64,000 nt of DNA from Mesaphorura yosii. Lineage: Eukaryota; Arthropoda; Collembola; Poduromorpha; Tullbergiidae. Position numbers and translations under genes: made by a program. The notes under the pieces were generated by a model. The model saw nothing but the letters and a program-made list of their open reading frames with translations. It ran no database searches and was not told where the DNA came from. Where the stretch lies: NCBI GenBank assembly GCA_009869945.1, contig WIXG01000049.1, positions 1 to 64,000 of the forward strand, given 5' to 3'. This document shows positions 42,501 through 61,466 of the stretch, one piece after another (position 1 is the first letter of the stretch; each line of letters opens with the position of its first letter).

Positions 42501-45500
42501 GGGATAATCGCGTCTGCATTTACATAAACAGTGCGTGTACGCGTACGGGTTCGTAAAATATGGGTTATGGAACAGAAAGCGAGCGGATAACTTATTAAGG
42601 GTGTCAATTACAACTGACCCCGAGAAAGCCAGCCGAGCCAGAACCAGAACCACTTCGTAATATCGTAATAATAACTGTGGACTGTGGTCCAGAGCCAGCT
42701 GGACCGAGATTTATGTTATGGGAGCCTTTCAGCGTCAAATTTTTTATCAATATATCAAAAGGACGAAGGTTCAACCTCCGTCTGGTCTGTCTTGGCTTTT
42801 AGCTTTTGAAGAAGATGCTCGGTTGATCATGATCACTGCTTGCTTGTGTACATTGTCTTACAAGCTGCATTACAAGTTTACAAGCCACTTTTTCAGAGTT
42901 CAGCCTCTTTTCAGAAATGCTGACAATTATTTTATTATTTCAGCTCCAAGATTACGAGTGCAGTGCTTTAAAATTGAAATGTGCGTCTCGCTCTTATCTA
43001 CAGTGTTGATGATTGTGAGACTTTGAGATCTGTAAAGATGCAGTAATTCTAGTTGTAATTGTAATGATTGGGTAATTTTTCAGGCCACATCAGAGTCTCA
43101 CTCTGAATAGCACCAGACTGGCCTTCGTTTTAATAGCTTTACTCCAAGGTTTATGTTGCCCAAATAAAATGATATTTACTTGACATTTTAACAAGCATGC
43201 AGCTGAATCGTATGATATCGAACAAATTCACGAATTTGACAGCATAAACAGGTGTGAAATGCCTATTTACGCAAGCTGCACTCGATTTCTAGCAAAAGCT
43301 AGAGTTTACATTGCAAAACTCGCGTGCAAAAAAGTGCAAAAAAAACTCAGGTTCTACCGAGACTTGAACTCGGATCGTTGGATTCAGAGTCCAAAGTGCT
43401 AACCATTACACCATAGAACCACTCGTTGAGAGAGGCTCTCGTTTCAACTCTACTTGAAACAAGTTGGCTATTGCTTGCTTGCGAGTAGTGAGTCGCTTAC
43501 TACATACGATATGTTAACACTGAACTTAACTACATTCAGATAGCACAGTGTCACTAAAGATCGATGGCCGTAGCACGCGTAGCAGCAGTGCTTTAGATTA
43601 ATTGAATTTAAGTATAATTTGTTTGTCTTTTGTCTAGTTGCTGAATGAAGACGTGACCACCGACAAATTCACTCCGATCGTGTGTCCCCGTGCTTCGGAG
43701 CTGGTGCTTGGCTATGACGAACACGTCCTCGTGTCCACCTACAAGTTTGGGGTCGTGTGCCAGAAGGAGGGGCAGACGACGGAAGAGGAGCTCTTCAGCA
43801 ACCTGGAATCCCTCTCGCTGGACACCTTTCTGGAGATTCTTGGAGAACGCATTCAATTAAAAGGACATCAAGGGTAAGTCATGCACGTCGACTTCTCATT
43901 CTTAATTGCGACTTGCATTATTGATCTCGAAGACGCGATGGTCGTCGTGTAGTGAGTAAGCGATTACGTTGAATACGTTGCCTGCCGGCTGTCGTCCGTC
44001 TTTCGGTTGAGCGACTCACAGCCGCAACCGGTGTAAGATTTCGATTCTCTTGAGATTGGCATACCGTGCCGACAATTTTAACGCCCGAATAAACATTGAG
44101 AATGACAGAGTGACAATAACGAGACAAATGATAAAAATACAACAGTTTTGATCTTGAACATTGAACTCCATTGTCGTTTGACGTTCATGCCGTGCCGTGC
44201 TGTGAACGGAATTGTTTTTCCGTTATGTCATGGAACTGGGTACAAGCAGGGTGGCTAGTGTGCAGAGTACAGGGTGCCATTGGCCATTGCCTTTGCTGTC
44301 AGCTCCAGTGAAGCGAGAGCAGAACAATCATTTTTAGACGGGACAGTGAAGAACGGAAGCGTTTCAAGCATAGTGGTAAAGTGAAGATCAAAAACTAGTT
44401 AGTTACAAATTACAAAAGTAAAGTTAAAAGAGTTGCAAATTACTTGAGAATGAGAATAGAACGGAAGCTGAGTTCTATTCACGTCAGTTTACCTGTCGAT
44501 GCTGGCGAAGTGAAAGACACGAGCCTGGAGCCCAATAAAGTAATGACTCGCGAATCGTTGAATGCTTTTTCCCTTCTCCGTCGTGCATTGTCCTCTTCCA
44601 GTTTGTTCACTTTCGTTTATGTTCATATGCATGTGGAATCGTGGAACTTGAGCAGTGCGAAGGAATTGGCGAATTCAACTCAGTGCATTTAATCTAAAAA
44701 CTTTTCCTTTGAGCCTTTGAAATTTGAACGATTCTCGTGTGTCGTGTCTCGTGGAAAGGTGACTGGCCTGGCCTGCACCTGCGGAGTACAAAGTAATCCT
44801 TACTCTGTTCGCCATTCATCTACACGAGGCGTGAATTTGTGATGAATTTCTTAATTTCCAGAGATCTGTGCCGTACCACAAAAGGCATTGTGTAAAAGTT
44901 TTCGCATTCACATAATCGCGTACGAGTTCATGAACTCTACTCTGCCGCTATGCTCTGCAGATGCAAATCTTTTCTTATTCCAATTTCCAGAAATGTGGTT
45001 ATGTCTAATGAATTGAGTGACTTACTAGCAATATCATGCTTCATCTAATTTTTACAGGTACCGTGGTGGGCTGGACACGCAACACGGGCAGACGGGCGAT
45101 GAGTCAGTGTACAACACGTACCAAGACCGTGAGATCATGTTCCATGTCTCGACGCTCCTGCCCTTCACCGAAGGAGACACGCAGCAGTTGCAGAGAAAGA
45201 GGCATATCGGTGAGTCAGTTGTCAGTCTACCCCAGATTTACAGAGGCAGAAATTGGCGATTACTCATGACTTTTGTTGTGCCCGCAGGTAATGACATCGT
45301 GGCCGTTGTGTTCCAGGAGGCCAACACTCCATTCTCGCCCGACATGATCGCGTCACATTTCCTCCACGCTTTCGTCGTCGTCGAAGTGATTGATCTGCAT
45401 GGTCCAAACACAAAGTACGCAGTTTTCTTATTCCTTGTACATGATTCTCCATCTCCTGACAATTCTGTGTGGGCTTGTTTTGTAATTTAATCAAGGCAGG

Positions 45501-48425
45501 CAGGCGTTTACAAAGAAGTCGTAGTCCTGGTCGTAATGCAGTAGACAATAGGAAATTGTGTCTTCAAAAAGTAAACAATTCCGAAGATTACAAAACAAAA
45601 GGGCAGAATTTCTGAGAAAGTAATAAACGAGCCAGAGGCGCGAGCGGCTGCTCGTCCCCTCAGACCATTTTAGTAGGTTGTTAAATGGGATCATTTTAAT
45701 TCTATAATGTAAAAAGTACAGTTGGGAGATTTGGTGTGGTCTCATAAATGTAAGGAAAACAATGCTCGACTCGACACTGACAACGACAACAGCTAGTGAC
45801 AGTTTTAAAGATCTCTCTTAAAATATCGAATCCTGGTCTCACCCAGTCTCGGTCTGGTCTGGGCTTCGTTTGTTGGCTCTTAAGGCCTTGAGCTCTTTTG
45901 GGAGTCGATGGACTTGGACTTGACTTGACTCGCACTTACTCTGCTCTGCTCTGGAAGAAGATTAATGATCTCGAACAATGAAAATCTCCGAAACTGAAAC
46001 ACAAACTGAAACAATAACAGCCAACTTGCCAACTAATCCACTAATCCCACTTCCTCTGCTGTGCCCTCTCGTTAACAGATACAAGGTGAACGTGACTGCA
46101 CGCGACGACGTCCCATTCTTCGGCCCACCGCTCCCGAACCCGCCCATCTTCTCTGACGGACCCACGTTCCGCGACTTTCTGCTGACAAAACTTATCAATG
46201 CAGAGACGGCGTGCTACAAAGCGGATAAATTCTCCAAATTGGAGGTAAGTTGAATGATTACCCAACCGCGAATTCGAAGTAAATGACAAAAGGCCAGTGC
46301 CATAGGGATAATGTTGGAAGTTGTGAATTGAAATCCAAAGTTTGGCGTAGACGAGTTGAATAAATTGTTGAGAGCGCACAGTGAATTTGTCTTGTCAAGT
46401 TGTGATCAGAATTACAAAGAATTAGGATAAAGTCAACTTGGATGACCATGGATGAGTTCAGTCACTTTCTGGTGTATTTTTCCACGAGTCTGGTGGCAAA
46501 TTCAGAATTCCAGAATTGGAGCGAGTCAGAATGTAGTTCATGTGCACGGTTCTATTATCTCTGCTTGATATGCTCTGAAGATGAGGTATGATGCGGAGAT
46601 ATCTCTCATCTCATTTCTGACAAGCCTGGACGAACTCTTGAGGGATTTTGTGTCTGTCATGAATAATAAATGAATGCAGTGCAGCAGCAGTGCAGGCAGT
46701 GAAAGCCTGGCTCGCAGATGATTAAACAATGAAAAATGACTTCCACTTCACGTTATTATTTTGCACAAACACAAAACGTGACGTAGATATGCCACAACAC
46801 AATAGAAAGATCCAGAAACTAAAGCTACAAAGTAGCACGAAAGAAACATGGTGAAAGAAGGCAAGCCACTCAAGAGACTTTCTTCACATTTTTATTCATT
46901 ATCGTAATAGAAATTTATCGCTGGCTTGTTTTCTCCGTCGGGCGCGTGTCAACAACGACCACTTGTTGGTGTCGGTACGACTCGTTCGAGTGACTGAACA
47001 CTTTCCACGTGGCCTTGAGTCGTTTGCCCTTCTCAGAGTTCATCCTGCGGATTAATTAATTAAGATCTTGATCCAATTAACGAGATTTGTTACAAGTACT
47101 TTTGTTCATGGTCGCAGATGCGGACACGCGCTTCACTCCTCAGCAGCCTCGTCGACGAGGCTCGGAGAAAGTCGCAAGACTTTCTTGGCGCCGCGATTCT
47201 CCCTGAACTGAACGGCTCGACGACTAACGGAGGCGAGAAGAACGGGAGTCTGAACGGAAGCGCCGGGAGCCGATTTATCGAAAGTGTGCGCAAGGCGCTG
47301 AGCTCCACAAAGGCCAAGAGCAGCTCGAGTCAAAGTCACACGAATGGCGACTCGCACCATCACAACGGCACGGCCAGCTACCCATCAAGCACTCACAATT
47401 CCATGAAATTAAAGCATCACAACAGTCATCACGGCTACAGCTCCGGAACTCCCGCGACTGCAGTCCGAACGCACAGCGGAGACAGCGCCAGTGGGTCGCC
47501 GGGTGTGGACAACAGCAGCTCCTCAACAATCCACCGGGGATCCACAGAGTCCACGGGTACAGGCTTGGCCGTCGCCGCCAACGGTCACAAAACCGGCGCA
47601 AGTCCTCTCTCCAGTCCAGAAGTTGACATAATTCCACAGAACCACGGTTCGGCCAGTATTCGCGTGTCGGAGAGTGATGACTCATCCCTCAACAGCGAAG
47701 AGCTTGAGGGGTCCGCCGCGTCTCACCACCATTTCCACAATCACCACCTCCATCATCGTGGTAGTTTTAATGGAAGCATCAACAATCAAAATAACAACAA
47801 CAATAACGCCAATGCGGTCGCTCATCACCACCACTCGAGTCATGGCGCCATCAGCATCAGCAGCAACGGCAAAATCATCCTCCAGAAGATGAACTCTTCC
47901 TCCTCTGCTGCGAATGCGAATGGAGGATCCGGGCCGACCTCCGCGATGACCATCGGCGGAGGCGCAGTGACCATGGTCGGGGTGAACGGAGTCATCACGA
48001 CGGCGGCGACGACGACGGGCACCGCAAACGAGGACTCGGACACCGGGCTCGAGTCTATGTCCAGCGCAGGGACTCCAAACAAGCGCACGTGCTCGCTTTG
48101 CATCGAGGAAGAGACGTCACGACTCCAGAATGACGGACTGAGACAGGAAGTGAACAAACTCAAATGTGACAAGCTGGACCTCCTCAGGCAGAACGTGGTA
48201 AGACAAGAATCTTCTTCTGGTACTCGTAATGATGAGTAATGAATAATGAAGCAAGCAATTAATTCCTTGCATTGTGTTTTTCATTGTTAGACTTGTCAAC
48301 GTGACATAAAGAAACTCAAAGAACGCGAGCTCCAGCTGCAGACAGACCTGTCAATCGCGTCGAAGGAGATTCTGCGACTCCGCAGTCTGCTGAAGGAGTA
48401 TGGCTCGGAAGGATCCATCGTGTAA
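3473..48425 (+). CDS. RapGAP1: Rap1 GTPase-activating protein (GoLoco + Rap-GAP domain)
   Basis: Stimulates GTP hydrolysis on Rap1, turning off Rap signalling at membranes. Coding exons: 3473-3567, 15940-16066, 17753-17845, 28868-28954, 30101-30322, 40231-40467, 43638-43873, 45058-45209, 45288-45414, 46079-46244, 47118-48197, 48291-48425. They join in frame to 918 aa and every junction is GT-AG. Domains in order: a GoLoco motif (residues about 77-102, G-alpha-i/o binding); the Rap-GAP domain (about 135-514) with the family signatures [26 protein letters not shown] and [14 protein letters not shown]; and the catalytic 'Asn thumb' GNDIV with N418. After these come a Ser/His/Asn-rich linker, the conserved [16 protein letters not shown] box (about 822-837) and a C-terminal coiled coil. 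The start is fixed by an upstream in-frame stop at 3383 and the context CAAAATG. Alternative first exons further upstream cannot be excluded. The identity is very secure; the exact N-terminus is less so. Confidence 0.95.
3568..15939 (+). other. RapGAP intron 1 (12.4 kb)
   Basis: No gene seen. Both strands carry only short, compositionally random open frames, the longest being about 150 codons at 9729-10187 with no motif. It contains a hexamer microsatellite at 7993-8023. Donor is gtcagt, acceptor is tttgcag. A large first intron is a usual place for enhancers, but no specific site can be named here. Confidence 0.7.
7993..8023 (+). repeat. Hexamer microsatellite GTCYGC
   Basis: Five tandem copies of GTCCGC/GTCTGC plus one base, the two outer copies carrying T in place of C. 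It is a simple repeat within RapGAP intron 1. Confidence 0.85.
15940..16066 (+). CDS. RapGAP1: RapGAP coding exon 2
   Basis: Encodes residues 32-74, a Ser-rich linker with many SSS, SNS and RRES motifs suited to phosphorylation. It follows acceptor tttgcag and ends TTG|gtaagt in phase 0. Confidence 0.85.
16067..17752 (+). other. RapGAP intron 2 (1.7 kb)
   Basis: Nothing supported beyond the splice sites. Antisense open frames at 16531-17012 are low-complexity and lack motifs. Confidence 0.65.
17753..17845 (+). CDS. RapGAP1: RapGAP coding exon 3: GoLoco motif
   Basis: A 31-codon, phase 0-0 exon (residues 75-105) that is almost exactly one GoLoco/GPR motif. It has the family pattern of [10 protein letters not shown] followed by SRLDDQR, where the terminal Gln-Arg pair is the part that reaches into the nucleotide pocket of G-alpha-i. 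As a symmetrical exon it could be skipped without shifting the frame, giving a GoLoco-less isoform as known for mammalian Rap1GAP. Confidence 0.93.
20929..20957. repeat. AT-rich palindrome
   Basis: A 29-bp near-perfect palindrome centred on GAATTC. The arms AATTTGAATT and its complement differ by a single-base bulge. It could form a cruciform or hairpin; no function is evident. Confidence 0.5.
28414..28444 (+). repeat. Hexamer repeat ATTCGY
   Basis: Five tandem copies of ATTCGC/ATTCGT within RapGAP intron 3, just upstream of exon 4. Confidence 0.75.
28868..28954 (+). CDS. RapGAP1: RapGAP coding exon 4 (Ser-rich cassette)
   Basis: A 29-codon, phase 0-0 exon (residues 106-134) made almost entirely of Ser, Gly, Pro and Asn. 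It inserts a flexible linker between the GoLoco motif and the GAP domain. The open frame continues past the donor AAAG|gtaagt, but the intron reading lacks conservation signals. It is likely to be alternatively spliced because it is symmetrical and low-complexity. Confidence 0.75.
28955..30100 (+). other. RapGAP intron 4 (1.1 kb)
   Basis: Nothing supported beyond splice sites (donor gtaagt, acceptor gcgtgcag). Confidence 0.65.
30101..30322 (+). CDS. RapGAP1: RapGAP coding exon 5: start of GAP domain
   Basis: Residues 135-208. Begins ELLEEVLN and carries the diagnostic [15 protein letters not shown], then a variable Gly/Ser stretch and [14 protein letters not shown]. Both conserved blocks match the N-terminal part of the Rap1GAP catalytic fold. 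Phase 0-0. Confidence 0.93.
31404..31437 (+). repeat. Degenerate hexamer repeat (CGAAYG-like)
   Basis: Imperfect tandem hexamers alternating CGAACG, TGAATG and CGAATG within RapGAP intron 5. Confidence 0.55.
39817..39838 (+). repeat. Short CTCGAA tandem repeat
   Basis: Three copies of CTCGAA followed by a partial copy, within RapGAP intron 5. Confidence 0.6.
40231..40467 (+). CDS. RapGAP1: RapGAP coding exon 6
   Basis: Residues 209-287. Begins [18 protein letters not shown], matching the EHFNYYSLD block of Rap1GAP, then EHWRLILR. It contains a Gly/Ser/Ala-rich insert (about residues 261-281) where vertebrate proteins are shorter. Phase 0-0. Confidence 0.9.
43338..43345 (-). terminator. Pol III terminator of tRNA-Gln
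   Basis: Eight consecutive A on the + strand (T8 on the transcribed strand), beginning 4 bp after the 3' end of the tRNA. A second run of six A lies at 43328-43333. This is the usual RNA polymerase III stop. Confidence 0.85.
43349..43420 (-). tRNA. trnQ-CTG: tRNA-Gln (anticodon CTG)
   Basis: A 72-nt minus-strand gene. The acceptor arms GGTTCTA and TAGAACC pair perfectly and the discriminator base is T. The D arm carries the A-box-like TGGTGTAATGG. The anticodon stem TTGGA/TCCAA encloses loop CTCTGAA (anticodon CTG, reads CAG), and the T arm contains the B-box GTTCAAGTC. There is no intron and no encoded CCA. It is very close to the standard animal tRNA-Gln sequence and is followed by a T8 terminator. 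It sits antisense inside RapGAP intron 6. Confidence 0.97.
43638..43873 (+). CDS. RapGAP1: RapGAP coding exon 7
   Basis: Residues 288-366. Matches the Rap1GAP core: [41 protein letters not shown] and TEEELFSN. Ends in phase 2 (GG|gtaagt) and forms a Gly codon with exon 8. Confidence 0.95.
43874..45057 (+). other. RapGAP intron 7 (1.2 kb)
   Basis: Nothing supported beyond splice sites. Confidence 0.65.
45058..45209 (+). CDS. RapGAP1: RapGAP coding exon 8
   Basis: Residues 366-416. Contains [30 protein letters not shown] and QLQRKRHI, the strongly conserved stretch leading into the catalytic loop. Ends in phase 1 (CG|gtgagt). Confidence 0.96.
45210..45287 (+). other. RapGAP intron 8, 78 bp, stop-free and in frame
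   Basis: A short intron (donor gtgagt, acceptor cccgcag) whose length is a multiple of three and which has no stop in the reading frame. If retained it would insert 26 residues directly before the catalytic Asn. Confidence 0.85.
45288..45414 (+). CDS. RapGAP1: RapGAP coding exon 9: catalytic Asn thumb
   Basis: Residues 417-458. Starts inside [11 protein letters not shown]418 is the equivalent of the catalytic asparagine of Rap1GAP that replaces the arginine finger. It also holds [18 protein letters not shown]. Ends in phase 2 (AAA|gtacgc). Confidence 0.96.
45415..46078 (+). other. RapGAP intron 9 (664 bp)
   Basis: Nothing supported beyond splice sites (acceptor gttaacag). Confidence 0.65.
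46079..46244 (+). CDS. RapGAP1: RapGAP coding exon 10: end of GAP domain
   Basis: Residues 459-514. Has [19 protein letters not shown] and [19 protein letters not shown], the C-terminal blocks of the Rap-GAP domain. Phase 0 end (GAG|gtaagt). Confidence 0.96.
46245..47117 (+). other. RapGAP intron 10 (873 bp)
   Basis: Nothing supported beyond splice sites. Confidence 0.65.
47118..48197 (+). CDS. RapGAP1: RapGAP coding exon 11 (low-complexity tail)
   Basis: 360 codons (residues 515-874), 0-0 phase. Begins [15 protein letters not shown], matching the RTRA-LL helix after the GAP domain. It continues as a Ser, His, Asn and Gly-rich disordered region with HHHH and NNNN runs. It ends with the conserved [16 protein letters not shown] box and the start of a coiled coil ([15 protein letters not shown]). 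It could be mistaken for a separate gene because it begins with ATG, but the acceptor gtcgcag and the phase show it is an internal exon. Confidence 0.93.
48198..48290 (+). other. RapGAP intron 11 (93 bp)
   Basis: Donor gtaaga, acceptor attgttag. The frame stays open for 13 codons into the intron before a TAA, so retention would give an alternative C-terminus without the final coiled coil. Confidence 0.8.
48291..48425 (+). CDS. RapGAP1: RapGAP coding exon 12 (C-terminal coiled coil)
   Basis: Final 44 residues (875-918) and TAA. The segment [12 protein letters not shown] through [10 protein letters not shown] is heptad-like and completes the coiled coil begun in exon 11. Confidence 0.9.
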   Translation, partial: TCQRDIKKLKERELQLQTDLSIASKEILRLRSLLKEYGSEGSIV

Positions 48426-51673: not shown

Positions 51674-54600
51674 ATGGCGATGGAGTCACAACTCTCCAAG
51701 AACCTACGTCTGGTTTGTTCCGTATTTGACATCGAATTTGGAACCACTGATGGCGGTGATGGTGCTAATGAAACAGGAGGTGACGGAAACGACAAGGTCT
51801 TTAGCCTAAATCAATTCCTATCACCCAATCAAGATGGAGTTGAGAGGATGGATCAAGATGACCAAGCGCCAGTTACTAGTGAACCCATCGATTACGAAGA
51901 GCTGATTGCCACCGTTTGCTTGGAAATCGTCTCTCGCCACTTGTCAGGCAAAATGAAAGACAAGAAGTATACTCCAAAGGCACCAGCTGCTACTGGCGGC
52001 TCTGATTCTGGTTCCGAAGCGTCGTCGTCAACGTCAACACCACCGCCTTCTGCGTCGTCGGCTTCAGGCTCCGCGGAGAAGAAGGCTAAGCGTTCTCCAC
52101 GGCGAGACCGAGACCACAGTCCCAGTAAGACAATGGCTGAGTTAATGGAAACGAATGACACTGGGTCACTCATATGCTATTGGTTCTTGGACTCAGTTGA
52201 AAGAGCTTTTAATACTGAACGAAATCAATCAAGGGTAGGTATAATTCGATGTCCTACTTCAGTTTTGTTTCAGTGGGACAAATTCGTTATTAATGAATTT
52301 GTCTTTTCAGCGGTCCAGTTCAGCTGATTCTCAGGCAATTCTGCGCATAATTCGACAACAATGTATCCAATACATTGGACTTACTTTACAAGGTTTGGAT
52401 TTTAGAATTTAGGCATATTAATAATGCAAGCATAAGCAGCAGTCAATTAGTGTTGGCGATTCGGTTGCAGGTGCTTTCTGTTCAATGCCGGAACATACAT
52501 CACCAATACTTTATCCACTTTTGTTTCAACTCTTGCCAACGGAACTCATCCCTGAAGTGACCGACAAATGTTTCGGCGACTACGATACTTTCGCCCGCGT
52601 ATTTCAGCCACTTCTTCGCGGCTTGTGGTTCCGGATGAGGAGCAGTACGATGCTCAACAACGATCATCGAGCTCCACTCACGGTGCTTCAGCAACTCTGT
52701 GAAGTCAAGCATCAAGGATCAAATATGCGTCCGTTCGCCAAGCTCGTGGCAGACATGGACAACTTTCTGCCAATACCATGTACCAAGGCTGCCGGGTTGG
52801 AAATTGGTACCATCTCTTACTTGGCACCATTTTTCAAATTTTCGTTGATGTACGAAGATGATACAAAGTTGGCGAGTCGATTTTTCAACCCCGAAATTCC
52901 TGCCGAAGGCCTTGTGATCAAGACACTGCAAGACGAACTCCAGAATAGCAGAGTACGTCAAACGCGAAGAATTCTTGCCTAACACAGTTACAATTGTTCA
53001 TGTTTCTCTTTTCTTTTCAGGGATTTCTTCATAAGATCGTCCACTCAATTTTGTCAAACCAATCGTCTCGTGACTTGTGTATTCGGTTCTTGAGTCAAGT
53101 ATTGATGAAGAATTCCAGTCGGGCAAAGATTCAGAGCGACAGACGCGAGAATCTCACCGATGGACCAATGCTGAATTACTTATCTGTGCTGCAGCTACTG
53201 TGTCTCAAAGTTAAACTGGACAAGGTTGACCCATACCACCCATTTCACCCGGAATCGGTGGTGGACTTCAAGAATGACACGAGAATTCGTGGAGAGTCAA
53301 CCGAAGTTGATGCATGGATCAAGGGCTTAGGTAATCAATAATCAATCCATATCTGTGAAAAAGTACTTTAATTAATTCATTTTTCTAAATTTTAGTTGAG
53401 AAGAACCACGTTTGGCAAGAACCAAAGTTTCCAACTCAGTGCTGGTTCCTGACAATGCAGGCTCATCACATTTGTATGCTGCCTGCCATCAACAACTTCA
53501 CGCGCACCATGCGCCACATCAAAGAGTTGCAGCGGATGTTGAACAGTTTGGAAGGGTCGGAACAGGCACGAACTGGACCACAAGCCCGTCACAACCAGAA
53601 GTTGATCAAGCGATGGAAACATGAATTGAAGATCCTACAGCATTCCAGAGCCAGCGCAGAGGCCGTGGTGCTTGACGAGGAATTGATGAAGCGCTGTCTA
53701 AGTTTCTACACAACTGTCGCCGAGTATTTGAATTCCTTACTGATGCCAGGACTAGAGCCAGGACATATTCCTGAATTGCCACTCCAGAACGACTTTCCTC
53801 CAATTTTCACTTACCTGCCAGAATGGTACATGGAAGACATCACAGATTTCATTCATTTTGCGCTAAAGTAAGTCGAACTATCTATTCTACGTTTGCTACT
53901 ATTGCGACTGTGAAACTGATCACGATGATTAATCAATTCAAACTGTTTCCACAGTACGAATTCCGTTGGAATGGCTGACTTTGTGAGCAACTCTCTGATT
54001 CTCTGGTTGTTGGTCATTATTTGCTCAACGCAGTACTTGCGTAATCCATTCCTGATCGCAAAATTAGTAAGAACTATTTCTTCCACTTCTACCCGATTGG
54101 TCAGCCTTTCAGTAACACCTGCCCCTTTGATTGCAGGTGGAAGTCTTGTTCTTGATTAATCCTCACCTGCAAGGAAGGCGCACGGAGGCTCTCCACGCTC
54201 GCATTATGGCGCATCCGATTGCTGAGCAGCACTTGCCCTCGGCCTTGATGAAATTCTACACGGACGTCGAAACGACGGGTGCAAACACCGAGTTTTATGA
54301 CAAGTTTACCATTCGGTACAACATCAGCATCATTCTTAAGACGATGTGGGAGAGCCAAGTTCACAAGTACGTTCACTTCGTTCAATTAACTTAAAAACGA
54401 ACATTGGAAAAGTGAATCTGAATCTGTTTACAAACAGTTTCCTTATTTGTATTACAGAGAAGCTATTATAAAGGAGTCCAAGTCAGGCAAGCAGTTTGTC
54501 AGGTTCATCAACATGCTGATGAATGACACAACGTATTTGCTGGATGAAAGCCTGGATATTTTGAAAAAAATTCGTGAAGTTCAGGATTTGCAAGCGGACA

Positions 54601-55487
54601 CTGCCCGCTGGGCCGCGTTAACTCAAGAACAGCAGCAGGCGAAGGTTCGCCTCCTCCAAGACTCTGAGCGCCAGTGCAGCAGCTACTTGCTTTTGGCCCG
54701 AGAAACTGTCAACATGTTCCATTACTTGACAGAACGAATCCGCGATCCGTTCCTACGACCAGAATTGGGCGTTCGTCTCGCGTCCATGTTAAATTACAAC
54801 CTCTCGCAGCTTTGCGGACCAAAGTGCAAGAATTTGAAGGTGCGGAACCCTGATAAGTACGGCTGGGATCCGAGAAAGTTGCTGTCTAGTTTGGTGGATA
54901 TTTATCTTCACTTGGACTGTGATGAATTTGCCACTGCACTGGCAAATGATGAGGTACGGCAAAAGAAGACCCCGGAACTTCATCATTTAATTGCCAGCCA
55001 ACATTGCACTGATATTGTCTGATTTATTTTACAGCGATCATTCAGTGTCGAATTGTTTAATGACGCGGCTAGCCGAATGGAGCGAAACAACATTGTATTT
55101 GAAGCAAAAATAGCACAGTTTCGAGCGCTGGGCGCACGTGCGGAGCAGGTTCGAATTCAGCTTCAGAGACAGGAAACTGATTACAGCGATGCGCCGGAGG
55201 AATTCAGAGGTAAGCTTTATCTTTCCATGAAAACAATAATTGCCCTGAAATGGAGTAACGCAAGTGATTTCGATTATTTAGATCCACTCATGGACACGCT
55301 GATGGATGATCCTGTCATCCTCCCAAGTGGCAAGATAATGGACCGTTCCATCATCGTTCGGCATCTCCTCAACTCCAACACGGACCCCTTCAACCGTCAG
55401 CCGCTTTCGGAGGACATGCTGAAGGAAGCAACGGAGTTGAAGCAGCGGATCATCGACTGGAAGCACCGAAAGGATATTTCTCAGTAA
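51674..55487 (+). CDS. Ube4b: Ubiquitin conjugation factor E4 B (Ufd2-type U-box ligase)
   Basis: Extends ubiquitin chains on substrates, working with p97/VCP in degradation. Coding exons: 51674-52234, 52311-52392, 52471-52952, 53021-53330, 53396-53867, 53955-54066, 54137-54366, 54458-54953, 55035-55209, 55282-55487. They join in frame to 1041 aa with GT-AG sites throughout. Residues 1-215 form a variable N-terminus with a Ser-rich and basic stretch. From about 216 the Ufd2 core runs with [31 protein letters not shown] and [13 protein letters not shown]. The U-box is residues 974-1035 ([39 protein letters not shown]). Introns are 65-91 bp. The start is the first of two close ATGs and an in-frame TGA lies just upstream. 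The vertebrate N-terminal RRRRLARL-type helix is absent. Identity is very secure. Confidence 0.96.
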
Positions 55488-56426: not shown

Positions 56427-57010
56427 ATGGCACCAATCGCCGTTGCTACGAATGGAATCGTCAAATTCTCGACTAAGGAAATTGGTAAGTATATTCTTGT
56501 TAATTGTGCGTTAATTTATTGAGCTAATTCGTCAGGAGCGGGAAGAAGCCTAACCTTGCTGATGAATTTTGGTTCCTTCAAGCAGATCCAGCAATAAAGA
56601 ACCTCGTCGAGGAAAGCATCGCCGCCCGCAAGAAGTCATACTGCCCATACAGCCGATTCTCCGTTGGAGCCGCGGTCCTGTGCAAAGATGGCACAATTTT
56701 CCAAGGCTGCAATGTGGAAAACGTCTCTTTCGGGCTCACAATCTGCGCCGAGCGTACCGCCGTCGTGAAAGCCATTTCTGAAGGGAAGAAAGATGAGTAC
56801 GAAGCCGTCGCTGTCACAGCAGAGATGAAGGACATCTTCACTACGCCATGCGGAGCATGTCGCCAATTCCTGGCCGAGTTCAACCCCAGAATGAAAGTGT
56901 ACATGTACAATCCGGCAACGGACAAAGTAGCCCTCACGACGCTAGAGCACCTCCTGCCTGGAGCCTTTTCACCGGAAGTGGCCACATTTGATATTAATTT
57001 TCCAGTGTGA
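56427..57010 (+). CDS. Cda: Cytidine deaminase (pyrimidine salvage)
   Basis: Hydrolytic deamination of cytidine and deoxycytidine to uridine forms; zinc enzyme, cytosolic, normally a homotetramer. Exons 56427-56484 and 56586-57010 join in phase 1 (ATT G|AT) to 160 aa. Motifs: SVGAAV and GCNVEN (residues 45-65), CAERTA (73-78) with zinc ligand C73 and catalytic E75, and PCGACRQ (107-113) with zinc ligands C108 and C111. The motifs are followed by the LLPGAFSPE tail. Length is typical of the short tetrameric family. The frame is open upstream of the ATG but carries no earlier ATG. The protein looks like an ordinary animal CDA. It lies head-to-tail with the murC-like gene, 240 bp upstream of it. 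Confidence 0.96.
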
Positions 57011-57250: not shown

Positions 57251-59004
57251 ATGGATTCCAACAATTCTGAGTTCAAGCAGGCAGTCGACAATCCAAATAC
57301 AACAGCATCTAAATTGGTGCACTTAGTAGGAATCGGTGGAATTGGGATGAGTGCACTCGCCCAGGTTCTCCACGCCAAGAAATACATCGTGCAAGGGAGT
57401 GACAGGCAACAAAATTCGCTGACGGCCCTCCTCTCCAGCTTGGGAGTGAAAATATTCCAGGGACACGACGCAGCACACGTCACATCGACTGACATTCACA
57501 TGGTCGTCGTTTCCTCATCGATCCGTAACACTAATCCGGAGCTGCGTCGAGCGAAAGAGTTGAACATTCCGGTGCTGACGCGGGGAGAAATGCTGGCTCG
57601 GCTGATGGAAGGTAGTCAAAGCATCGTTATCACAGGTATTGCGTCAAATAAATTGCAGGTATCAGGCTTGCTGATCGTGATTAGCAACCTGTTTACTTGT
57701 AATTTTCAGGCACGCACGGCAAGACGACGGTCACTTCCCTCATTGGCCACATTCTGAACTGCATGACACCCAAACAGAATCTGACAATCATTAACGGCGG
57801 CATCATGCGCAATTGTGGGAGCAACGTCTTGATTCAATCCGCATTCACTGCTGATCCGATAGAAACAGAATACTGGAACAATTCCAGGGCTCAGAAGCAG
57901 AAGTACCGACTGAAGGAGTGGTTTGTGGTCGAAGGAGACGAGTCTGACGGCACAATGCTGCTGCTCCCCAGGCGGATCGCAGTGATCGTAAATATTGACT
58001 TGGATCACATGAATTATTACAAGACGGAGGAGAATCTGATGCGGGCATTCCAGCAATTTGTGGAAGATACATTGGAGGGCGGCGGTTCCGTTGTTTTATG
58101 CACGGATTGTCCACGCGCACGCCAAATTTATGAGAAATTACTGGAAGCTGGTCGGTCTGGACGTCTGCATCAAGTACAAGGACAAAACAGGGACTCGCAA
58201 GTGATCACTTACGGACTACACGAGGGGCCGGCAGGACAACTTGCCTTCACTCATGTTCAAGGATGGAATTCCAGTCAAGACGTCCACGGAATGCATGTTG
58301 ACATCCGAATACTTGGCGTTGGAAGTTCCCACTTCCGATGGGAAAATGTCTTCGTCCCACTGTATGGAAGCCACAACATACAGAATGCTCTCGCCGCCGC
58401 TGCAGTGGCCACGCATTTCGAAGTCACCGAAGACGATTTTCGAAAGGCGATGGTCTCATTTCTTGGCACAAAACGGCGATTCACAGTCACCGGCGAAGTG
58501 CAGGGCATTATGATAATCGACGACTACGCGCACCATCCAGCAGAAATCGCGGCCACCCTGATTGCAGCCAGAAACTTAATCTCTAGTCGCCAAACCGATG
58601 GGCGATTGGTGGTAGTTCATCAGGTTCACCAGTACTACAGGCTCCAGCAATCGTATGAAGAGTTTGTGCGCTGTTTTGAAGCTGCCGACCTCGCAATTTT
58701 GCCACCCGTTTATGCCCTCGGTGAAGAGCCGATTCCTGGCGTGAGCTTGGACACCCTTGCACGTGACGTCAATATCAATGCCAAGTCATTCTATCAGACA
58801 CCCAAGGTCTCAGACTCAGACTCCAGCGGTGGACCATTTGCCAGGGCCGTGAGCTCCTTCGACGAGGTGAACAGGGTCCTGCTAGAATACTGCAAGTCGG
58901 GTGACATTATTGTTTGCTGTGGGGCGGGCAGCATTACTGAATTGGCGCACCAGCTTCCAAATGCCCTACGTCTAAAGTTAAATAATACTTACTTGACTTG
59001 TTAA
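57251..59004 (+). CDS. murC: MurC-type UDP-N-acetylmuramate--L-alanine ligase (bacterial origin)
   Basis: In bacteria this ATP-dependent Mur ligase adds L-Ala to UDP-MurNAc in peptidoglycan synthesis. Exons 57251-57635 and 57710-59004 join in phase 1 to 559 aa; the 74-bp intron splits the first Gly codon of the P-loop. Domains: an N-terminal Rossmann domain with VGIGGIGMSALAQ (26-38) and GSD; a central ATPase domain with GTHGKTT (129-135), EGDESDGT (203-210), DLDHM (225-229) and SHNIQNALAA (349-358); and a C-terminal domain with KRRF (383-386), DDYAHHPAE (399-407), YALGEEPIPGVS (463-474) and GAGSIT (533-538). All key motifs are intact. It is longer than the usual 450-490 aa because of a 20-residue N-terminal extension and insertions near 171-197 and 485-510. 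DDYAHHP with 'IPGVS' marks MurC rather than MurD/E/F or Mpl. No peptidoglycan partner is seen nearby. Its role in the host is unknown. Confidence 0.95.
57636..57709 (+). other. Spliceosomal intron inside the murC P-loop
   Basis: 74 bp, donor ACAG|gtatt and acceptor attttcag|G, with a pyrimidine-rich 3' end. Removal restores an exact ITGTHGKTT motif, which is strong evidence that the junction is correct. The length is not a multiple of three, so unspliced RNA would be frameshifted. Confidence 0.9.
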
Positions 59005-59515
59005 TTATTAATATGCAGCAGAACACTAATAATGTCGTAATTCAGTGACTGCAACTGATTATTAAGGAATTCAAAATATACAATGACAGACTGCAAGGAC
59101 ACCTTGGACTTAATATGGATTTAAAATGAAATTACTTCATTCGTTTGGCGAGTCTCCTCTGAGTATGCCACCAAGCAAGCTAGCCGGCGTTCCAAACAGC
59201 ACAAGAATGGGGAAATAAAAGCATTATACTTAGGACTTAAGTTAGGTGTGTGACTTTGTGAAGGGACTGAACCAGCGAATGACGCAAAGTTGGTCAAGGA
59301 GGTGACGAACGTAATTCAGTAACTGTGCTTATAATTTATGCAAAGAATCAATACAAAATTTGGAACAGTAAATAAGACAGATAATAAGTAAAGAGAGTAA
59401 AATTTTTTAGAAGTGTTTAACTTAAGAAGGCCAGTTATTTTCGATCTTTTCTCCAGTGAAGAAGCCAGGCAAAACCGAAGCCCAAATCCGTCTGAAGCTC
59501 CATGAATCAGCGTAT
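59005..59515. other. Tail-to-tail spacer between murC and Swiprosin
   Basis: Holds the 3' UTR of murC up to its AATAAA at 59214-59219 and the 3' UTR of the minus-strand Swiprosin gene. No coding sequence seen. Confidence 0.6.
59214..59219 (+). promoter_or_regulatory. AATAAA poly(A) signal of murC
   Basis: A canonical eukaryotic hexamer 210 bp after the murC stop. A bacterial gene would not need it, so it supports host transcription of this gene. Confidence 0.65.
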
Positions 59516-61466
59516 TCACTGCGTCAAGGTCACTTGTTCGAAGAATGCGTGTTTCTGTGCGAATTCTTGGCGCTTTTGCTTCTTCTCTAGCTCCTGCTTG
59601 CGTTTTTCCTCCTGTTCCTTCTTCACTTCCATCTCAAACTTGCTTTGAACCTTCAATTGCTCAATCTGTAGGATAAGAAAGGCAAAGAGAATGAGTAAAA
59701 ATTCTTGTAATGCTCTTATCATTGACACTTGGCACTTCTCACATGTGCTATCGCTTACTTTGGCTTCGAAGAAGTTCTTAGCACCATCGACGCCCACTTC
59801 TTTGATGTCCACTTCAGTCAGCTTTGTGAGTGCGGAGAGTCCAGAGTCAGATTCCAGTTGTCCAGCCTTGGCTTTGTGGTAAATCAGCAGAAACTGTCAA
59901 AAATAAATCAAAACAATAAGCCATTAGCACAGCAGCTGCATTAAAGTGCATTTATGCGTAAGGGCGCTAAATCTTTACGAAAGTGCTCGTTCGTCCCTCA
60001 TTACTCGAATCTCGAATGTATGTCACACAGTCACACTTCATTGTGTGTATAAATTCACATCTCGCATGTATCACGTATCAAGACACATGAGTCATGAATT
60101 ATGAAAGTTATACTCCCATAATAATAATCCATTTCTCAATCCTCAACCGTGGTTAAGTTTAATCTCGAAATGCAGTTTTCAGCATACATTACATTCCATT
60201 TCGGCTACACTGCAATGCGACTGAAGTCGGTCGAGAGTCGAGTAAGTGAAACTGATTCATTTCTGCCTCTGCCTTGCGCCTTGTCCCATTTAGCTTTTGT
60301 TCCTCGATTTCGATTTCCCAATGAAAGGGTCGACAGTCGACAACAATGAAATGCCACAGCCTGCCAGCTTGCTTGCCCGTCGCCATCGCCGCGACCGCGA
60401 TTAAACGGATACAGAAAGAACCGCGATTGCGATTGGCGATTGAATTGAGGGTATTCAAATGTCCATTAGCACTTTAACGATAAATGAATGGATGAATCAG
60501 CACCAGCGGCAGCAGGAAAAGAATTAAACGCTGCACAAGGCAGTCTGACTCACGCGACTGGCGATGCCTTTTATAGTCAAAAGTGAACTAGTCAAGTTGA
60601 AGTTGGACTTAACTTACTTCATTGAAGCTGATTTTGGAGTCGCCGTCCGTGTCCACCTCCTGAATCATGCGCTTCAGACTTAAATGCGTTTGCGGCGCGC
60701 CCAGAGTCTCCATCATCAGCTTCATGTCCTCCAGATCCAGGTAGCCGTCCTTATCGCGATCAAATCTGAAAGGCAAGACAAACGCATTACGCATGGAAAT
60801 GGCATTAATGCAATGCGCCAACCAACAAGCCACTTAACTGCCGCATTATAAGCATTAAGCACGCGTACAGGAGTGCATTAAGAACGCATTTTGCTCATTT
60901 CCGGTCTGATTCTATGCAAGAGCACGTACAAGACAGCAATATAAACATTCGAGCGTCGAACTTCATTCGAGTTGAGAGGCTGCTGACTGTTTTGTCGCTG
61001 CGCTGACTCGACTCGAAAAACATTTACATTATCACTGACGAAAATAGAAAAGGGACAACATGCAACGTGTTACAAACAAGAGGATGTCGAGTTGTGAGTT
61101 TTTTGAGCGAGCTGTCGAAAGATATTACACTAAACACGGTCAAAGGAGTCTGATTTTAACAGGAGGCTGTGAACTCGCATTCGCATTGAGCTGGAAATTC
61201 CTTATTCGTAAATGCAGGAGGAAAACCGAAGCGAGACCCAAAAAGGCTATGCAAAGCAGCAAAAGTGGTCTTATTTACAACTATTTCTTGAGAATTGTGA
61301 CATACCTCTGAAATATTGTCCGATACTCTCTTATCTCCTTGCGGCTGAGCATTTTGGTGAGGTCAATTTTGTCCTGATTCTGTTGTATGATGTGGGCAGC
61401 CTCTTCTTCGCTCAGCTCGCAGCGCTGCTGACGCTTTTCGAGCTTCTGAGTCAGATCTGAGTCCAT
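59516..61466 (-). CDS. Swip-1: Swiprosin / EF-hand domain-containing protein (EFHD1/2 family)
   Basis: A calcium-binding actin regulator. Minus-strand exons 61466-61306, 60765-60618, 59893-59759 and 59665-59516 join in frame to 197 aa with GT-AG sites. N-terminal residues 1-50 are polar and helix-prone. EF-hand loops lie at 56-67 (DRDKDGYLDLED) and 92-103 (DTDGDSKISFNE). They are separated by the family signature KLMMETLGAPQTHLSLK, which EFHD1/2 share closely. Next comes EVGVDGAKNFFEAK, and a charged C-terminal coiled coil runs from about 149 to 190. Start: the first ATG (MDSDLTQKLE) after acceptor ggtttcag at 61506. A further 5' non-coding exon with donor GTG|gtaagt at 61914 is likely. The family usually has 200-240 aa, so the N-terminus is slightly short. 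Confidence 0.95.

Follow-up and report, generated by a model that had tools for sequence, protein, structure and literature searches.

Does a bacterial MurC gene found on an animal contig belong to the animal, and what might it be doing there? The window, by which we mean the whole stretch of 64,000 nucleotides that was analysed, sits in a contig of 318,952 bp and contains no N. Its MurC gene (57251-59004, + strand) consists of two exons and yields, after splicing, a protein of 559 aa with no internal stops. Exon 1 (57251-57635) encodes the N-terminal Rossmann domain, with VGIGGIGMS, up to the ITG of the P-loop, and exon 2 (57710-59004) encodes the ATP-binding and C-terminal domains up to the stop, including GDESDGT, DDYAHHP, GEEPIPGV, and GAGSIT. 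The intron between them (57636-57709, 74 bp, GT-AG, phase 1, GTATTGCG...TGTAATTTTCAG) lies within a Gly codon of the P-loop, the two parts of which, ITG and THGKTT, are rejoined exactly on splicing; read without splicing, the frame meets a stop at codon 169. Around this site, 12 GT..AG pairs would give an intron of at least 40 bp without closing the frame, and only 57636-57709 restored the contiguous SQSIVITGTHGKTT expected of MurC. About 210 bp 3' of the stop, an AATAAA (59214-59219, + strand) is a possible polyadenylation signal, judged by sequence match only. The first-pass annotation had described a 559-residue MurC as one frame; all six motifs that it quoted are present in the spliced protein, but the gene has two exons and is not a single open frame.

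By its family model the protein is a MurC, scoring 382.1 bits against NCBIfam TIGR01082 (murC), above the curated equivalog cut-off of 335.1. The best PDB comparison reached 217.8 bits, with residues ~170-197 and 273-341 of the animal protein left unaligned to the PDB MurC. The P-loop GTHGKTT, ESD, and DDY.HHP are present and aligned, and K133 matches all 100 bacterial rows. Likeness to bacterial MurC extends to 45 of 47 conserved columns (100 bacterial rows; A90S and P434V differ), whereas the split of the gene by an intron and the change P434V, at a position almost or fully invariant among the bacterial rows, set the animal version apart.

On both sides MurC is flanked by animal genes on the same DNA, just as had been claimed. 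Upstream lie several open-frame pieces of a UBE4-type ubiquitin ligase (53389-55484, + strand) with Ufd2P_core and U-box domains, closer to UBE4B in the PDB (94.6 bits) than to yeast Ufd2 (~55.6 bits), and a cytidine deaminase frame (56528-57007, + strand; PF00383, 67.2 bits); downstream lies a frame that holds an exon of an EFHD1/2 (swiprosin) gene (59519-59896, - strand; 51.9 bits). With a G+C content of 0.51, and 0.565 at third positions, against about 0.44 for the window, the base composition of MurC, together with its intron and its neighbour genes, fits an animal chromosome. Elsewhere in the window, a tRNA-Gln (CTG) at 43349-43420 (- strand) was the sole Rfam match at gathering score, and an open frame of 391 aa with many Ser, Asn, Gly, and His residues (47064-48236, + strand) had no Pfam match. 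Because of the intron, the animal neighbours, a long branch in the tree, and bacterial wall-polymerising genes not being found in the assembly, the evidence supports the proposal that a bacterial MurC entered an animal chromosome by horizontal transfer.

MurC is not alone. A search of the assembly (93,006,257 bases in 1127 contigs) with the central Mur ligase domain pointed to four places, namely MurC in the window, MurF on contig C439, MurE on C1, and MurD on C331, and further searches of the same assembly located MurA on C87 as well as MurB and Ddl on C2. These six genes, one clear copy each, are thus spread over five contigs besides that of MurC. The search for further mur and ddl genes that had been suggested at first has therefore found MurA, MurB, MurD, MurE, MurF, and Ddl, and a lone MurC is ruled out. 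MurC, MurD, and MurE exceed their TIGRFAM cut-offs, and MurF stays slightly under its own (276.7 vs 288.6); the names of MurA, MurB, and Ddl come from their Pfam domains, their translations over the full length, and alignments with bacterial rows, with no equivalog model, the bacterial MurA rows being taken from TIGR01072 hits. All but MurC are single intronless open frames. The seven proteins are between 367 and 559 residues long, and their reading frames contain no stop in about 3,370 codons altogether.

Within 1.5 kb of MurA there are two chitin deacetylase exons (73.7 and 105 bits to PDB 5zns, which we take to be Bombyx CDA1). At similarly short range, also under 1.5 kb, MurD is accompanied by exon 1 of V-ATPase subunit a (57.6 bits to the 116-kDa isoform 1 type, yeast ~25) and Ddl by an exon of MED25 (61.2 bits, Pfam). 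The likeness of the deacetylase to 5zns points to an arthropod or something closely related; no COX1 was found in the assembly. MurB shares its contig with Ddl at a distance of 86 kb, and both are richer in G+C (0.56 and 0.58) than the window. For MurB, MurE (on a contig of 970 kb), and MurF (56 kb), no gene was recognised in the single flanking frame tested for each. The complete series of seven soluble reactions that leads from UDP-GlcNAc to UDP-MurNAc-pentapeptide is accordingly encoded in the animal nucleus, with MurB, MurE, and MurF having no named neighbour in their own flanks.

Two other loci came up in these searches. An EPSP synthase on contig C146 (G000:C146:160070-161408; L006/L007) with a probable 70-bp intron was distinguished from MurA by a PGSKS motif in its sequence, which we take to be AroA-like, and not by a model; it appears AroA/AROM-like, a shikimate-pathway gene in an animal genome, and is followed by a 989-aa open frame. 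Contig C551 carries a gene for a Ddl-like ATP-grasp protein and, after it, a frame resembling a methyltransferase (L009:1144-3022, + strand), with an MFS-like frame nearby; the ATP-grasp gene is possibly another transferred biosynthetic gene.

Besides the seven soluble steps, the screen covered the transpeptidase, glutamate racemase, MurG, MraY, and 16S. Neither the penicillin-binding transpeptidase domain (PF00905) nor the racemase domain that includes glutamate racemase (PF01177) had any match in the 93-Mb assembly, each search with 10 of 14 controls positive. No MurG was recognised among at least 36 PF04101 matches in the assembly, the top one being an ALG13-like protein; another falls within an ALG14-type frame, and the rest, at least 34, resemble C-domains of UDP-glycosyltransferases by their match positions. 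These last are distributed over many contigs and represent a sizeable family for a 93-Mb genome. On contig C144 of the same genome (G000), a single long frame (L013:679-3441, + strand) shows an unusual fusion of ALG14, an ALG13-type glycosyltransferase domain, and DUF6492. Nor was MraY recognised in the assembly, its two PF00953 matches being adjacent exons on C226 that we read as DPAGT1. Bacterial 16S was not found either, a weak negative in which 5 candidates out of 1030 received a score and the bacterial controls failed in 4 of 10 cases. A self-contained peptidoglycan pathway, including MraY, MurG, a transpeptidase, and glutamate racemase, was hence not revealed by the searches made, and these results argue against both contaminating bacteria and a self-contained wall.

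What are these genes for? Seven intact genes of bacterial ancestry, four of them with animal neighbours, keep their conserved residues, and the downstream genes were not found by the searches made. The reading that we favour, and hold to be somewhat better than an even bet, is that the host makes the wall precursor, or the enzymes for it, for an intracellular bacterium; here we infer the existence of the symbiont as well as delivery, expression, and activity. UDP-GlcNAc is abundant in chitin-making animals. From it, the seven host enzymes would produce UDP-MurNAc-L-Ala-D-Glu-mDAP-D-Ala-D-Ala, and this precursor, or the enzymes themselves, would be delivered to the bacterium. The latter would contribute D-Glu and DAP and retain the membrane steps, on the pattern of the mealybug Planococcus citri. 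Two results suggest this reading: the failure to find MraY, MurG, the transpeptidase, and glutamate racemase makes an intracellular bacterium the most likely destination of precursor or enzymes, and the gene set ends where the mealybug host set is reported to end. A symbiont wall had been one of several options offered at the outset, and the six further precursor genes in the same genome favour it over the idea of a single enzyme put to some new use.

The searches made of the assembly, the weak 16S one included, brought no symbiont sequence to light. This result, like the lack of any bacterial downstream enzyme and of glutamate racemase among the matches, would suit an animal with a use of its own, and no symbiont, for UDP-MurNAc-pentapeptide or for a muropeptide nucleotide that is shorter; the compound might serve as a metabolite, a signal, or a regulator of immunity, and eaten bacteria would provide its D-Glu and DAP. 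In its bolder form, the animal may use the muropeptide nucleotide with no bacterium involved at all. However, a symbiont was possibly left out of the assembly, given how many 16S controls were missed, and the gene set stops at the very step reported for the mealybug host. We regard such own use as unlikely.

A changed product must also be weighed, and for this the columns that are at least 95% conserved among the bacterial homologue rows were checked in the animal proteins. Together, the seven proteins keep 285 of 301 such columns: besides MurC, these are 57 of 64 in MurA (22 bacterial rows), 32 of 32 in MurB (70), 43 of 43 in MurD (66), 49 of 51 in MurE (50), 25 of 28 in MurF (52), and 34 of 36 in Ddl (52; P370S and A373M differ). 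MurF has lost D61 and R63 of the near-invariant DSR motif (D61Y, R63F) and also E431 (E431G), all of them positions that vary little or not at all among the bacterial rows. With MurC P434 lost as well, activity or substrate may therefore differ, and the drift of MurF and Ddl at conserved sites could mean that the last step adds something other than D-Ala-D-Ala. The end branches of the animal proteins in the quick trees, 1.29 to 1.86 changes per site, point the same way, but no conserved column is lost from MurB or MurD, and just two are lost from MurE; we consider a changed product quite improbable.

MurA retains its loop cysteine and lysine, which we take to be residues with known roles, and MurE retains TDDNPR, the DNPR motif presumably being the mark of a DAP-adding MurE. 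MurB shows a Cys at a column with Ser in 65 and Cys in 5 of 70 bacterial rows. The same protein (L010:718-1821, + strand) has a strongly hydrophobic, signal-anchor-like N-terminal segment (residues 20-38; Kyte-Doolittle 2.83 over 19 residues), and so may be membrane-bound, to judge by its residues. No comparable hydrophobic N-terminus was seen in the other six proteins; the next highest value, 1.87, falls upstream of the first MurD ATG, and 5' exons are possible.

That the genes are unused, decaying relics of an old transfer is very improbable: a few near-invariant residues are lost, as decay would predict, but the frames have stayed free of stops despite more than one change per site, and all but 16 of the conserved columns were retained. 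Contamination or misassembly, with bacterial sequence joined to animal contigs, was the first reading considered and is scarcely credible, for although six genes are intronless, MurB, MurE, and MurF lack a named neighbour, and MurB and Ddl exceed the window in G+C, it would require separate misjoins on six contigs and is at odds with the GT-AG intron of MurC, the animal genes close to MurC, MurA, MurD, and Ddl on the same contigs, and the failure to find a PBP transpeptidase in 93 Mb.

Where did the genes come from? A MurC scan of bacterial genomes gave 52 loci with a best identity of 36%, and a comparison with 385 alphaproteobacterial genomes matched 376, the 18 best, long segments showing 38-44% identity; the mur region was retrieved from 40 of the matched genomes. 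Since the bacteria were partly picked by likeness to the animal MurC, with non-alphaproteobacterial groups thinly sampled, the sample is biased toward Alphaproteobacteria, for MurC itself above all. By phmmer, the best alphaproteobacterial protein outscored the best other one for MurB (278 vs 162 bits), MurC (317 vs 255), MurD (305 vs 169), MurE (265 vs 198), MurF (269 vs 144), and Ddl (225 vs 133), whereas the top score for MurA belonged to a non-alphaproteobacterium (305.0 vs 293.2 bits). In the quick MurC tree (101 rows), the animal was grouped with 46 alphaproteobacteria at a starred support of 99, and in the quick trees of the other six genes it stood among or beside Alphaproteobacteria. 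The grouping of the animal with 31 alphaproteobacteria in the MurF tree, at 98, was the sole starred set among those six; MurD, MurB, MurE, and Ddl gave none, and support for MurA was 80.

A more careful MurC tree used 74 rows, 27 of the 101 having been removed (18 as near copies, 9 as long or odd). It separated Alphaproteobacteria plus the animal from 30 others at 99/96 (starred), and a tree of six genes joined, based on 57 rows with at least four of the six and with L119 dropped, united the same set at a starred 100. The AU test for MurC did not reject a tree of Alphaproteobacteria without the animal (p 0.549), which had the higher likelihood, and those for the six-gene set did not reject the animal outside the sampled Alphaproteobacteria (p 0.567 and 0.782, two values for a single split), again at higher likelihood. 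Given supported branches but no rejection, alphaproteobacterial kinship is likely, and positions inside or beside the sampled Alphaproteobacteria are both compatible with the AU tests. The resemblance of MurC to alphaproteobacterial enzymes, suspected from its motifs, is consequently borne out by scores and branch support, but the AU test does not place the animal inside rather than beside the group.

Regarding a single donor, six genes are alphaproteobacterial by score, with branch support for MurC, MurF, and the joined set, and MurA is undecided. The order murE-murF-murD-murC-murB-ddl was found in 30 of 53 alphaproteobacterial loci, and murB and ddl adjoin in 42 of the 44 that hold both; the contig that MurB and Ddl share may preserve what is left of a single inserted cluster. 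We infer one donor event for the genes. A wider proposal, which we put forward tentatively and think has a less than even chance of being right, is that an animal other than a mealybug took over all of the soluble half of peptidoglycan synthesis from a single alphaproteobacterial symbiont, the genes now lying in its own chromosomes, and that a present intracellular bacterium uses the host precursor, making this a second, independent, single-donor step toward an organelle. If this is true, a second animal lineage, with an apparently uniform alphaproteobacterial source, would mean that host takeover of wall-precursor synthesis is repeatable, and host control over a symbiont wall could be tested by known inhibitors (fosfomycin, D-cycloserine) and RNAi.

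The closest known system is the mealybug P. citri, for which an identical set of seven genes has been reported (PMC5664097), with MurF located inside the symbiont and reported to have a signal peptide (PMC12176269); according to these papers, the same seven soluble steps are nuclear, as here, and the symbiont performs the final three steps of precursor synthesis (PMC5664097, PMC12176269). In contrast, the 22 transferred genes of the mealybug are of mixed source, with six bacterial genera listed for the 22 together (PMC5664097), whereas here six of seven genes point to Alphaproteobacteria, and it is MurB that has a hydrophobic N-terminus. The assembly studied here amounts to 93 Mb, and the window has about 44% G+C. 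In the open-access literature, preprints excluded, the mealybug was the only animal met with the whole set, and others may be in print; in its main text, the Folsomia candida genome paper mentions neither peptidoglycan nor acetylmuram, alanine ligase, or Mur ligase.

The plastids of mosses and glaucophytes are of cyanobacterial origin and have polymerisation enzymes, unlike the present case, in which the searches made found none. Their peptidoglycan pathway resembles the one described here in that Mur enzymes belong to a eukaryote (PMC9434261). Bacterial wall genes have also moved to animal nuclei and been kept in ants (ddl2, murA, murQ) and aphids (ldcA, amiD, rlpA), as reported in PMC13320244, PMC9116674, and PMC8689515; those are single or recycling genes, whereas the animal described here holds a whole synthetic route.
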